64,000 bases of DNA from Fulvia fulva (lineage: Eukaryota; Ascomycota; Dothideomycetes; Mycosphaerellales; Mycosphaerellaceae). The first letter of the stretch is position 1, and every line of letters starts with the position of its first letter. The stretch spans positions 3,472,001 through 3,536,000 of the forward strand of contig NC_063012.1 in the NCBI RefSeq assembly GCF_020509005.1, read 5' to 3'. The position numbers and the translations under genes are program-made. Positions 34,935 through 41,632 of this stretch are shown in pieces. The notes beneath the pieces were generated by a model. The model was not told where the DNA came from and made no database searches. It saw only the letters and a program-made list of their open reading frames with translations.

Positions 34935-35806
34935 TTATGACACTGCCCGAGGGCAACACAATCCCACATGCGTCCAGAGTAGTCGCATTATGGTTATGAA
35001 CAGGACACATGGTGTTTATTGGCGCACTGTAGTTGTACCTTGTTTTAAAGATATCCCACAAATCAGATGTGTTTCATACGCAATTATTCCACGTCAACAT
35101 TCTCTATCCCACCTGACCCCAGTCACAACGACGCTCCCACATACGACCATGGCATCGTTCAATTTCAAGTTTTACAATATAGTTCGAGCGTACGAATCTG
35201 GCTACCAGTTCATTCTACTTTCTTTCAATGACGAGGAAGACGAAACTCCTCGGCGTAGTAGTGGAGTAGTATCTCGCTCATGGTGTCGAGAAATAGGGAA
35301 AATTCATGGAGACCTCAACGACGACAGAGAGCAGAGGACGGGTGATAGAGGCATTTGCATAAATAGTCACATCAGAAGCCAACGTAAGGACGGGAATTAG
35401 CTATGGATAGCTCTGTCTGCCACATCGGATTTGCTGGATTTGCCGGTTTACTCATCCATCGGATACATCATGGCCATTGCTGTATCTTGAACAGTACCTT
35501 CGATAAGCGTCGAATACATCACTTGAAGACTTCGGCGATGTGTTCTGATGCTGCTGGAAGGCTTGCACGGTTGTTGCGTTGAAGCACAGTGAGTGGTACG
35601 TCCATGACATTTCACAGCCTGATTTGGCCTTCGTGGTCACCACACCGTACAGACCCACGATCACCCATTTTCACAAGGTGACATCGTCGCTGAGCATGGT
35701 GGTTAGCTGCTCTTCCGCCCCGTTTCTGTTGTAGAGCTATATCAACAGCTAAAGAAGGACCGCTTCCACCAATCACCATCGAATGCTCAGCATTCAACTC
35801 GGTTCA
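34935..35806. other. Intergenic region with one small doubtful ORF
   Basis: 3' flank of the cyclin gene. An ATG at 35150 in good context (CGACCATGG) opens 83 codons to 35400 (MASFNFKFYNIVRAYESGYQ...). It has no recognised family, no signal peptide and no splice partner. I do not call it a gene, but RNA evidence could change that. Nothing else is seen before the tRNA at 35807. Confidence 0.4.
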
Positions 35807-35817
35807 TCCCCGATGGT

Positions 35818-35869
35818 GTCAGTACCTCTCCACATTCCTCCCAGTATCAAGTAACTAATAATTCAGCAG
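35818..35869 (+). other. Spliceosomal-like intron 1 in the tRNA (D stem)
   Basis: 52 nt, donor GTCAGT, branch-like AACTAAT, acceptor GCAG. It falls between tRNA positions 11 and 12, inside the A box. Confidence 0.5.
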
Positions 35870-35885
35870 CTAGTGGCTATGATTT

Positions 35886-35935
35886 GTTCGTCTCCTCATC
35901 AACGGTTGATGTGAGCAAGAACTAACATCGTACAG
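35886..35935 (+). other. Spliceosomal-like intron 2 in the tRNA (before anticodon stem)
   Basis: 50 nt, donor GTTCGT, branch-like ACTAAC, acceptor ACAG. It falls between tRNA positions 27 and 28. Removing it rebuilds the T27-G43 pair and the continuous stem TCCGC. Confidence 0.5.
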
Positions 35936-35971
35936 CCGCTTGTCAATCAATCAATTCGCAAGTCGCGGGAG

Positions 35972-36023
35972 GTAAGCAGTGCAGTCTGTCCACTCTCGAT
36001 GAACGTAACTAACATATCATCAG
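35972..36023 (+). other. Spliceosomal-like intron 3 in the tRNA (variable loop)
   Basis: 52 nt, donor GTAAGC, branch AACTAAC, acceptor TCAG. It splits the variable loop (AG and AC). This is the best match of the three to the intron consensus of the protein genes in this window. Confidence 0.6.
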
Positions 36024-36050
36024 ACCAGGGTTCGATTCCCTGTCGAGGAG

Positions 36051-37107
36051 CATCAAGCGTCTCTCAAGAGCGATATATCTTTTTGATCGTCTTCTTCGAG
36101 GTCGGATAAGTGTGGATGGTGGTCGGGGTTGTGAAGCCTCGAGTATTTTTGAAGACGCGGGGTCAAGGGCAGCGTTCGAATGTCCAAGAGCTTGAGCATG
36201 TGATTATTTATAAGACTGATTGTAGTCGTAGTCGAAGATGAACAAGTCAATGTCGAAGAGCTGAAGTTGGTCCAGGAGGCTTGATCGGCTTGTGACACAC
36301 TTTTGCCGCTTTCGCAGTAATCCAACAGGCTCAGCGACAATGATACGACCAAGGTGCGTGGGACGATGTTGTGAACCGGAATGTAGAACTTTTGACAAGT
36401 GGCGAGATCGATATGGCTACTTGGCTGGGCTAGGCGGAGAGCTGTCTGAAAGAGGCTCTGGAGCAATTGTTTGAGTGATCATCTGAGTAGTAGTCCCAGA
36501 CATTGTATAGAGCTCGTCGGCGTGTCCACGATGTAGAAGGAAACGAAGCACTCCAGGGTCAGGGCCAATATTTGGGCTGCCTTGGGTCAGCGATATAGTC
36601 GGGGGCTGCCCGACGTGCCCAGGAGCGCATTTCCCAAGTTTCCGCGAGACGAATAGACGTTACTTCGTTCTGTATGGTTGGTTGGGGTCGAGCCAGACCC
36701 AAAGATGCGTGATGAAGCGCGTGTTTGACATTGTTTACATGTATTGGATCATGACGTGGGGATCAAAACAGCAACCACCACATTTGACGCCCAACGGCCA
36801 GCAGACAGCTCTGAATCCTTCCTTCCGCAACACTTCCTTCCGCCACACAAGTCTCGTTTGCACCAGCCTCTGCTTCACATCCAACACCGACACTCGCTTG
36901 ATGTTCACATCCCACACAGCTTCGCCTTCTTGGTCGTTCATCAGCTGAACGAGAGGTAATGTCGTCACCAGCAATGCGCCCGATCATTCGCCGTTCACCC
37001 TCGCTGACCCATTGGAATGCAGTGCAGCGACTCGCATTTCACGATCCCTCTCCCTCTCCCTCTCCCCCAAACGCCGGCCAGCTCACGGCCCTGCGCAACG
37101 AGGCACC
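36051..37107. other. Intergenic region and MOB1 leader
   Basis: A minus-strand open frame (36466-36053) ends 3 bp from the tRNA and is low-complexity Ser/Thr/Leu; I take it as chance. A CT-rich run (CTCCCTCTCCCTCTCCC) near 37050-37070 lies in the presumed MOB1 leader. Confidence 0.5.
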
Positions 37108-38165
37108 ATGACCTCGTTCATGAACACAATGTTCGTACACAACTCCCCTCCGCAGCCATACTCCCAGTCGCCCACAAAGCCATTGCCAGCGCTGCAGTCC
37201 AACGTGCTCGCAAACTCCGAGTCGTACCCCCACCTGCACTGTCCAGAGAGTCCGCGCTCCGTCTACCATTCGCCACTGCAGCGACACATCCAGCACGTGT
37301 TCGAGCATGGCAGCACTTCGCCCACGCGCTCACAGATACCTCTCCCCGTCCAGCACGAGTACCGACATCATGACACACATCGTGGCGCAGCGCTGGGCTT
37401 CGGCTTCATGGATATCGTGAAGAAGACTGACCTCTTGACGCGCAGCAACAGTAGCGCTCGAAGCCGCGCAACAGCCTCGTTCCAGCCAACAAAGCGACAG
37501 AAGGGTACCAACAGCTGGCAGCTCAAGCAGTTCGCCGAAGCCACTCTCGGAAGCGGCAGTCTACGAAAGGTCGTCCAGCTACCAGAAGGCGAAGATCGGG
37601 ATGAGTGGTTGGCCGTCAATGGTGTGTCCATGGAGAGCATGCTTGTTTGTCGATGCTCATTCGGCGCTAACGCCTACCAGTGGTCGACTTCTACAACCAG
37701 ATCAACCTCCTCTACGGCGCCATCACCGAGTTCTGCTCGCCTCAATCATGCCCGGAGATGAAAGCCACCGACGAGTTCGAGTACCTCTGGCACGATCCGC
37801 CAGCATTCCCCAAGCCGACACGCCTTCCAGCACCTACCTACATCTCCCATCTCCTCACCTGGACCTCCAATCACCTCTCGAATCCCTCCGTCTTCCCGAC
37901 ACACCCAGGCGTCGTCTTCCCGTCGAACTTCCAGCAAACGATACGCACCATCTTCAAGAGACTGTACAGAATCTACGCGCACATATACTGCCATCACTAT
38001 GGCGTTGTGAGGGGCCTTGGGCTGGAGGCGCACCTCAACACAGGCTTCAAGCACTATGTTCTGTTCGTCGAGGAGTTCAACCTGGCAGATGAGAAGGGCA
38101 ACAAGAAGGGGGAGTGGTATGGACCGCTTGGAGAGCTGGTTGAAAGCATGCTACGCAGCGACTAA
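37108..38165 (+). CDS. MOB1: MOB1 kinase activator (mitotic exit / septation network)
   Basis: Exons 37108-37621 and 37681-38165 give 332 residues; the 59-bp intron is GTGTGT...CTACCAG with a GCTAAC branch. The Mob1/phocein fold starts near residue 135: [40 protein letters not shown], then the zinc ligands as CSPQSC and, later, HIYCHH, followed by [18 protein letters not shown]. Mob1 binds and activates the NDR/LATS kinase (Dbf2/Sid2) at spindle poles and the septum. The first 134 residues are an extension rich in Ser, Pro and His with several SP/TP sites, comparable to the yeast Mob1 N-terminal extension but not alignable with it. A second in-frame ATG four codons on (37120) could also serve as start. 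Confidence 0.93.
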
Positions 38166-39810: not shown

Positions 39811-41632
39811 ATGCAGAACAGCAACAGCGACAGCAGCAGCTCTCCCGACCCAGCACGGCTATCGCTGTTAACACCTATAGGTAAGCTGCCGCGCTCACCA
39901 ATCACCTGTCCAGCATGGAGCGCGTGTCGTCGAAGCTCTTCGACATGGCCTCCGCTGGCGCGCCCTCGGGATGGAGCTCCTGAGCCACTAGGCACGCGAC
40001 CTACTCCGCCGTTGCATCCGTGCTGGAGCAAGACAACGGGCTAAGTATGTGTCTTGAACAGGTTATCAAAGCAGCGACTGCGGATACTGCAAATCAGAAG
40101 AGTCAAGTCAGCGAACTCCCGATTCCCGTGCGTTCCATTGAGTCCTTGCTTTTGCCTCTCCGACTCTCCTTGCCTCACTCCTTCTGGCACCATGTGAACA
40201 TGAGGTCTTTGACCTCCCACAACACCTTTTCTACCGATCGTGGGCGGCCATCCCTAACGACGAACATGCAGGTGCTTCGTACTATGCACGAGCGAAAGTC
40301 CTCGGTCCTGAACACTACCAAAAGCTCATGGACCGTGGTTGGAGGCGATCCGGCACCCTGATCTACCTCCCGGATGCGTCCAGAAGCTGCTGTCCGCACT
40401 ACACAATCAAGCAAGTCATGTTCAGCTTCGCGTCAGTGGCAACGTAGACTGACCTGGGCAGATTACCTGCCTCTGAGTTCAGGCCTTCTCGTGATCAGCG
40501 TCAGGCGCTCCATCGATGGAACAAGTTCGTTCTTGGCGAGAAGTACATCAAGGAGGTCGAGAAGCAATTTCCCAAGACGAAAGAGTATGTTCTCTGGGGC
40601 CATGCCTGCAGCTTTGCTCAGTGCTGACCCTTGCAGGGAGAAGAAACGCCTCAAAGACACCTTCGACCTCGAGCAGGTAGTCCACGAAAGCGGGCGTCCC
40701 AATTTGAGGCCTAGCATTGAACCGGACCACCGCTTCGAGGTGACGCTTGAGCCAGACAAATTCACCGAGGAGAAGTTCGGGCTGTTCGAGAATTACCAAC
40801 GACACGTACACCACGAAGAGGACGGTGATATCACCGCATCCGGATTCAAGCGCTTCTTGTGCTCCTCCCCAGTATCAAGACAGACAGACAGCGATGGTAA
40901 GAAGCTGGGCAGCTTTCATCAATGCTATCGCCTCGATGGACGCCTCATTGCTATGGCCGTTCTGGACCTACTTCCTCATGCTGTCAGTGGCGTGTATTTC
41001 ATTTACCATAGTGACTTCGAGAAGTGGTCGTTTGGGAAGTTGTCGGCTCTTCGGGAGGCATGCTTGGCCCTCGAGCAAGGTTACCAGTACTACTACATGG
41101 GCTACTACATCCACGGTTGCAAGAAGATGCGCTACAAAGGCGACTACAAGCCACAATATGTTTTGGACTACGACAGTCTCCAGTGGGATCCCCTGAATGA
41201 CGACATGAAGTTCCTCATGGAACACAGCAAATACGCCAGCATGTCGAGGCACCGTCTGAAGGAGGCCGGCAGCCTGCCTGACGAGGAGGACAAGCCTATG
41301 CATCCCACACCAACTGAGGCAATGCAGTCTGGTCTATCACTACTTCAGCTCGGCATGCCCGGAGTCTTGACATTAGATCAGCTACACCAAGAGGTGGAAC
41401 TTGATCACATGAAAGTCCATCTTGGCCGCGGGAGTGTTCACGAGATTCAGGTAAACTGCCCTTCCTCACGTCTATGTACCTAAAGGAAACCTCTAACATC
41501 CAAGTCCAGAACATCTCAACCTGGGACTCAGGCTCAGATCTCGACCAATCGTCCCTACGCGGCATCTTCGCTGAGCTCGCCGCCGTGCTTGGACCCGACG
41601 TTGCAAAGGAAGCCATCATTGACTTTGGCTGA
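39811..41632 (+). CDS. ATE1: Arginyl-tRNA--protein transferase
   Basis: Six exons: 39811-39880, 40062-40127, 40272-40410, 40462-40584, 40637-41450 and 41510-41632, giving 444 residues with all phases consistent. The N-terminal Cys cluster is intact: SSDCGYCKSEESSQRTPDSR and SCCPHYTIK. The catalytic region follows: SGFKRFLCSSP, GSFHQCYRLDGRLIAMAVLD, VYFIYHSDFEKWSFGKLSAL and YYMGYYIHGCKKMRYKGDYK. Intron 3 (40411-40461) has a GC donor, GCAAGT. Only that choice keeps TIKLPASEFRPSRDQR in frame, since the nearby GT would give an early stop. Ate1 adds arginine from Arg-tRNA to N-terminal Asp, Glu or oxidised Cys, marking proteins for the Arg/N-degron pathway. The last exon (NISTWDSGSDL...) is acidic. 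Confidence 0.94.

Follow-up and report, generated by a model that had tools for sequence, protein, structure and literature searches.

Can the transcript of a tRNA gene be a substrate of the spliceosome? Spliceosomal introns are customarily kept apart from tRNA introns, each class being assigned enzymes of its own. The question is raised by positions 35807-36050 of the stretch of DNA analyzed here, from the tomato leaf-mould fungus Fulvia fulva (the window; 64,000 nucleotides, C1:3472001-3536000), in which a sequence-only reading had proposed a tRNA-Asp gene with three spliceosomal-type introns. This segment is a tRNA-Asp(GTC) gene (L009) with four main exons, interrupted by GT-AG introns of 52, 50, and 52 nt and, in addition, by an 18-nt canonical intron. 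The proposal is supported by two paralogues, by 18 further split genes, and by an intron of like structure in a protein gene of the window. L009 belongs to a set of 19 such genes, representing nine amino acids, which we found in this genome.

Anatomy of the window locus and its paralogues

The removal of 35818-35869, 35886-35935, and 35972-36023 together with 35946-35963 leaves a 72-nt cloverleaf with the anticodon GTC, whose mature sequence is TCCCCGATGGTCTAGTGGCTATGATTTCCGCTTGTCACGCGGGAGACCAGGGTTCGATTCCCTGTCGAGGAG. These coordinates agree to the base with those proposed earlier for three segments plus 18 nt at position 37/38. The locus is built as follows.

35738-35742, + strand: TATA-like element (TATAT), 69 nt 5' of the tRNA start
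35807-35817, + strand: exon 1, tRNA positions 1-11
35818-35869, + strand: spliceosomal-type intron 1, 52 nt, between positions 11 and 12 (GT...ACTAAT...CAG)
35870-35885, + strand: exon 2, tRNA positions 12-27
35886-35935, + strand: spliceosomal-type intron 2, 50 nt, between positions 27 and 28 (GTTCGT...ACTAAC...TACAG)
35936-35945, + strand: exon 3a, positions 28-37, with the anticodon GTC
35946-35963, + strand: canonical tRNA intron, 18 nt, at 37/38, an expected substrate of the tRNA-splicing endonuclease
35964-35971, + strand: exon 3b, position 38 to base 2 of the variable loop
35972-36023, + strand: spliceosomal-type intron 3, 52 nt, in the variable loop (GTAAGC...ACTAAC...CATCAG)
36024-36050, + strand: exon 4, comprising the last part of the variable loop, the T arm (B box intact), the 3' acceptor strand, and G73
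36080-36084, + strand: T5 run, candidate Pol III terminator, starting 30 nt past the last tRNA base

The 18-nt insert lies at 37/38, and the inserts of 50 to 52 nt do not. ARAGORN called the spliced product tRNA-Asp, in agreement with the earlier identification of the anticodon as GUC, and inspection of the sequence bore out G10-U25 as well as the single mismatches described for the acceptor stem (4-69) and the D stem (13-22). Each of the three longer inserts starts with GT, ends with CAG, and contains a branch motif (CTAAT, CTAAC, and CTAAC in introns 1 to 3) with the branch A 10 to 11 nt before the last base, just as had been read. Intron 1 breaks the A box, a disruption that the sequence-only reading had likewise pointed out. 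For this intron, the automated parse chose an AG three bases upstream; the 3' end was set manually at 35869, because this is the sole choice giving 72/72 identity with two paralogues.

No tRNA was found by ARAGORN in the unspliced window or in the unspliced gene with the intron option on or off, and an Rfam search of the window gave no match, as is expected where a gene is split. The folding energy of the spliced Asp 72-mer was no better than that of shuffled sequences (z -0.60), and for Thr a z of -3.01 was obtained.

A T arm and acceptor end identical to those of L009 occur at three places in 67 Mb, and all three genes (L009, L010, and L011) are split; a fourth site, L012, which differs by 3 mismatches, was left out of the gene set. 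The mature sequences of the three genes, which lie on two contigs, are 72/72 identical in all three pairs. Their GT-AG introns differ in number (three in L009, two in L010, and three in L011) and partly in position, being located at 11/12, 27/28, and in the variable loop in L009, at 27/28 and 51/52 in L010, and at 10/11, 27/28, and 51/52 in L011. Thus, L010 and L011 have no intron at the variable-loop site of L009 intron 3 and have one at 51/52 instead. Intron identity was 0.67 (11/12 versus 10/11) and 0.70 (27/28) between L009 and L011, 0.62 at 27/28 between L009 and L010, and 0.65 and 0.59 between L010 and L011, compared with a mean of 0.54 and a 95th percentile of 0.61 for unrelated intron pairs. 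The 18-nt canonical intron recurs at the same place and with equal length in L010 (16/18 bases identical) and L011 (15/18), and both paralogues have a TATA-like element between -69 and -59 and a T5 run downstream. The placement of the first intron at 11/12 in L009 and at 10/11 in L011 has the appearance of a one-base intron slide.

A check for other tRNA-Asp copies equal to the spliced 72-mer, suggested along with the original reading, thus yielded two genome-wide, both of them split, and pattern searches found no contiguous copy. The contiguous D-to-anticodon arm of the three-copy sequence had 0 matches genome-wide with up to 3 mismatches allowed, and a looser contiguous Asp pattern, also applied genome-wide, matched only L051, a fourth Asp gene of different sequence, itself split by one intron at 49/50 in the T stem. 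A 401-base query (window positions 35700-36100) matched only itself and the two paralogues in the genome; near-identical copies of the introner-like kind were not found by this query.

Split tRNA genes across the genome

The genome searched, a single one, comprises 67,169,167 bases on 14 contigs. As seeds, we used 124 distinct B-box sites (GGTTCRANTCC) from 71 and 57 pattern matches, with an intact B box being required. Raw match numbers were not clearly above those of reversed-pattern controls (71 versus 79 in one search and 57 versus 46 in the other), so that chance accounts for most of these matches and the evidence has to come from the structure test. In this test, up to three GT-AG segments of 40 to 100 nt with a branch motif were removed and the best cloverleaf was scored, with a cutoff of 37 chosen after the scores were known. 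Twenty-five of the 124 seeds scored at least 37, 19 needing introns and 6 needing none. When the T-arm tails of these 25 seeds were joined to random window DNA, 5/2000 constructs passed.

The 19 split genes (Asp, 4; Thr, 4; Gln, 3; Val, 2; Leu, 2; Gly, 1; Ala, 1; Pro, 1; and Ser, 1) contain 34 GT-AG introns, one to three per gene. By our own parse, all 34 lie off 37/38, one of them, in L118, at 38/39, and 16 of the 19 genes also carry a canonical 37/38 intron. In 12/19 genes, the A box or its immediate surroundings (positions 8 to 22) are interrupted by an intron. One internal exon of the Thr gene L099 is only 8 nt long, which would be hard for the spliceosome to handle unless the introns leave in order. 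Two parses are uncertain, those of L015 (Leu), which was fitted without the long variable arm, and of L032 (Pro), in which the second intron changes depending on whether the branch motif is required. Seeds scoring 30-35 (L110, L090, L038, and L037) were left out, as was L120, a unit of a SINE-like repeat reaching 37.6 in a looser run without the branch motif. Six seeds with the B box GGTTCGANCCC gave no tRNA (6 of the 54 ANCCC B-box sites, i.e., 18 + 36). A repeated tRNA-like sequence, partly in tandem units, was seen at L084, L098, L111, L116, L120 (two units), L124, and L127; it has A-box-like and B-box motifs and looks like a SINE family.

Four paralogue sets (three Asp, two Thr, two Val, and two Gln genes) combine identical mature tRNAs with diverged introns. 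Beyond the Asp set, the mature sequences are 72/72 identical in the Thr genes L099 and L117 (identity of introns at shared positions, 0.52), 74/74 identical in the Val genes L096 and L122 (0.61), and 72/72 identical in the Gln genes L029 and L059 (0.85 and 0.73). This pattern points to purifying selection on the mature sequences. No contiguous Thr(AGT) or Gln tRNA gene was matched genome-wide by the patterns used, and for Val, an unsplit Val(AAC) gene, L003, exists beside the two split ones.

A genome search with the Rfam tRNA model, in which 63 of 1234 candidates were scored, gave 22 matches among those scored. Fifteen of the 22 are 71-134 bases long and without a visible insert of the GT-AG type. 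ARAGORN run without introns on these 15 called Cys, Val, Ser, Arg, and Pro, plus two less clear cases, leaving the others unassigned, and none was called Asp. Six of the 22 share both length and a score of 41.9 bits (C1:10675274, C2:4010719, C4:5392158, C5:4745140, C9:2445509, and C12:312588); the two loci of this score that were compared, L023 and L045, sit within near-identical longer repeats. One match (1448-1522; C3:4910445-4910519; 35.5 bits) covers the 3' part of L099, a split Thr gene, and starts inside its second intron; a split gene can thus be mistaken for a degenerate tRNA by standard scanners. L003 was missed in an Rfam rescan of 12 loci and was called tRNA-Val by ARAGORN. Both of the searches behind them being biased, the tRNA counts given here should not be taken as a census.

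Splicing and transcription signals

All 34 introns have GT...AG ends, which were imposed by the search. When six other boundary pairs were allowed to compete, GT-AG was strictly best in 16/19 genes; other boundaries tied with it in L117 and L082, and in L057 GT-CA scored 44.0 versus 43.1 for GT-AG. Without the branch motif being imposed, the same introns were recovered in 18/19 genes, and 32/34 introns contained CTRAY, the branch A lying 8-13 nt before the intron end (null, 2.4%). G occupies position +5 in 29/34 introns (null, 25%), and 30/34 end in CAG or TAG (null, 44%). The introns are 49-74 nt long, as measured before the 3-nt manual correction of L009 intron 1.

The spliced sequences of all 19 genes were called as tRNAs by ARAGORN with the anticodon found by our own parser. 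However, random removals of the same length also gave calls (452/1900 and 1211/5700), and when the junctions were displaced by 3-5 nt, the correct anticodon still emerged in 790/1900 cases, compared with 18/19 for the true junctions. ARAGORN was therefore rejected as the main judge, and its agreement on the spliced genes adds little alone. With its intron option, it made some call on 9/19 unspliced genes.

The introns in the tRNA genes resemble protein-gene introns of the same genome, for which one example verified by Pfam is available in the window, in the Mob1 gene.

37622-37680, + strand: Mob1 protein-gene intron, 59 nt, used as reference (GTGTGT...GCTAAC...CCAG, branch A 10 nt from the end)

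When the Mob1 exons were joined, the score against the Pfam Mob1 profile rose from 27.5 bits (positions 1-32) to 237.7 bits (1-165). The likeness to protein-gene introns in the window, which had been asserted from the letters, is thus upheld by this one intron of the same build. The Mob1/phocein gene itself, at about 37012-38165, is a neighbor of L009. Farther along, at about 40374-41483, lies an arginyl-tRNA-protein transferase (ATE) gene with a candidate 52-nt intron (40585-40636) upstream of the Pfam domain.

Downstream of the split genes, a run of at least four T within 60 nt is present in 18/19 (null, 8.5%) and a run of at least five in 16/19 (null, 1.6%). Inside the introns, runs of at least four T are depleted (1 versus 5.1 in shuffles, P = 0.018); for runs of at least five, depletion was not significant (0 versus 1.3, P = 0.25). 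The 3578 nt of gene bodies contain no run of five or more and three of four or more. A TATA-like element starting between -85 and -40 was found at 13/19 split and 7/14 unsplit tRNA genes (L070 left out); about 4% of random 45-nt windows hold such an element by a slightly stricter criterion, by which 11/19 split genes have one. TATA elements being common to unsplit tRNA genes, the split genes appear to share a tRNA-type promoter. Together, T runs and TATA elements favor Pol III as the transcribing enzyme, short of proof.

Competing explanations and biological meaning

L009 likely functions as a nuclear tRNA-Asp(GTC) gene, transcribed by Pol III, that contains one 37/38 intron and three U2-type introns removed by the spliceosome. 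If the choice of polymerase is left aside, it seems very likely that the split genes work as tRNA genes and that the spliceosome excises their GT-AG introns. Pol III would start downstream of the external TATA element and would stop at the downstream T run, the intact B box serving to hold TFIIIC. In the nucleus, the spliceosome would free the pre-tRNA of its GT-AG introns, a role that it also plays for U6 in some fungi, and the refolded pre-tRNA would then lose its 37/38 intron by the action of tRNA-splicing endonuclease and ligase, followed by the usual end trimming. Among the considerations that count against this explanation is that, to our knowledge, the spliceosome as a rule does not act on transcripts of Pol III.

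Spliceosomal introns are normally a feature of Pol II transcripts, and the split genes might be functional but transcribed by Pol II from a TATA promoter, the tRNA being cut from a longer, capped precursor after Pol II-coupled splicing. TATA-like elements upstream of 13/19 genes, T runs located as far as 51 nt downstream, and the split A-box region in 12/19 would fit this possibility; the sequence-only reading had raised that of a Pol II transcript with a tRNA-like tail. Transcription by Pol II is nevertheless unlikely, considering the T5 runs within 60 nt downstream of 16/19 genes against a null of 1.6%, the depletion of T4 runs in introns, the TATA elements at 7/14 unsplit tRNA genes, and the B box, intact in 19/19 genes, though demanded by the search. 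A removal of the inserts by the tRNA-splicing endonuclease, as extra noncanonical introns whose GT-AG look is incidental, has a precedent in the multiple noncanonical tRNA introns of other lineages. We know of no use for CTRAY or a +5 G by this endonuclease, and the occurrence of CTRAY in a zone only 6 nt wide in 32/34 introns (null, 2.4%), together with the +5 G in 29/34, renders such a removal very improbable.

The preferred reading also has to be weighed against the suggestion, again made at the outset, that L009 is a pseudogene: the split loci might be dead tRNA copies invaded by introner-like or intron-like insertions, with the real tRNA-Asp genes elsewhere. F. fulva is known for multiplying introner-like elements, according to the consulted portion of PMC4457414, and the existence of an unsplit Val(AAC) gene beside two split ones would fit this account. 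Dead copies would not be expected to keep paralogous mature sequences identical (72/72 for Asp) while their introns diverge; moreover, contiguous Asp, Thr(AGT), and Gln genes were not matched by the patterns used, two pattern searches having been run for Asp, and the 401-base L009 query found only itself and its two paralogues. We thus hold this account to be improbable. The notion that only the 3' fragment is derived from a tRNA, the 5' exons being a chance construction, draws on the ability of a combinatorial GT-AG search to build cloverleaves, as in the 5/2000 null trials that passed; it is already contradicted by the paralogues, with 5' exons identical base for base at three loci on two contigs and diverged introns between them, and its probability appears negligible.

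A spliceosomal intron in the gene of a small structured RNA is likewise found in U6 snRNA genes of fission yeast and other fungi. The U6 gene is transcribed by Pol III, and its introns were reportedly gained several times, a view attributed to Canzler et al. 2016. U6 introns concern one RNA, whereas in F. fulva the tRNA genes affected represent nine amino acids, and each contains one to three such introns. A U6 search of the F. fulva genome gave one match (L154; C4:1169208-1169308), full-length and uninterrupted, so that introns are not a feature of every small RNA in this fungus. Spliceosomal introns also occur in rRNA genes of lichen ascomycetes, thus likewise in RNAs of the translation machinery, but in Pol I transcripts and not in tRNAs. 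Canonical nuclear introns, removed from 37/38 by endonuclease and ligase, share the tRNA gene as their host, and 16/19 split genes carry one; the 34 introns described here differ from them in their positions, their length of about 50 nt, and their spliceosomal signals. Archaeal and red-algal tRNA genes likewise may have several introns at unusual positions, but those are cut by endonuclease at bulge-helix-bulge folds.

The U3 snoRNA introns of fungi are another case of spliceosomal introns in a small noncoding RNA, albeit U3 and not a tRNA, and for them intron sliding in Dothideomycetes is noted in the consulted portion of PMC5832005. The introner-like elements of F. fulva and its relatives are spliceosomal introns multiplying in the same species (PMC4457414, in part), but L009 had no matches beyond its two paralogues. 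The word tRNA is absent from the main text of both this paper and the Race 5 assembly paper (PMC9453070). Passages of a 2026 review of noncanonical splicing (PMC13149111) describe tRNA splicing as spliceosome-free, and among the matches listed in a search of open-licence PubMed Central (titles and starts of abstracts, no preprints), none reported tRNA genes with spliceosomal introns.

Where tRNA genes are split in this way, ordinary tRNA production would need the mRNA-splicing apparatus. We regard it as fairly probable that decoding of at least Asp, Thr, and Gln in F. fulva depends wholly on split genes, that the spliceosome and then the tRNA endonuclease act in series on Pol III precursors, and that spliceosomal introns were gained repeatedly in tRNA genes. 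In that case, every cell would need two splicing machines in series, the split genes would presumably be essential, and translation capacity would be tied directly to the spliceosome. In practice, tRNAs of such genomes can be missed or misinterpreted by scanning programs. If these views hold true, the spliceosome can serve Pol III transcripts broadly, beyond U6, and the split tRNA genes of F. fulva would offer a natural system for the coupling of splicing to polymerase type, for the recognition of very short exons, and for intron gain in noncoding genes.
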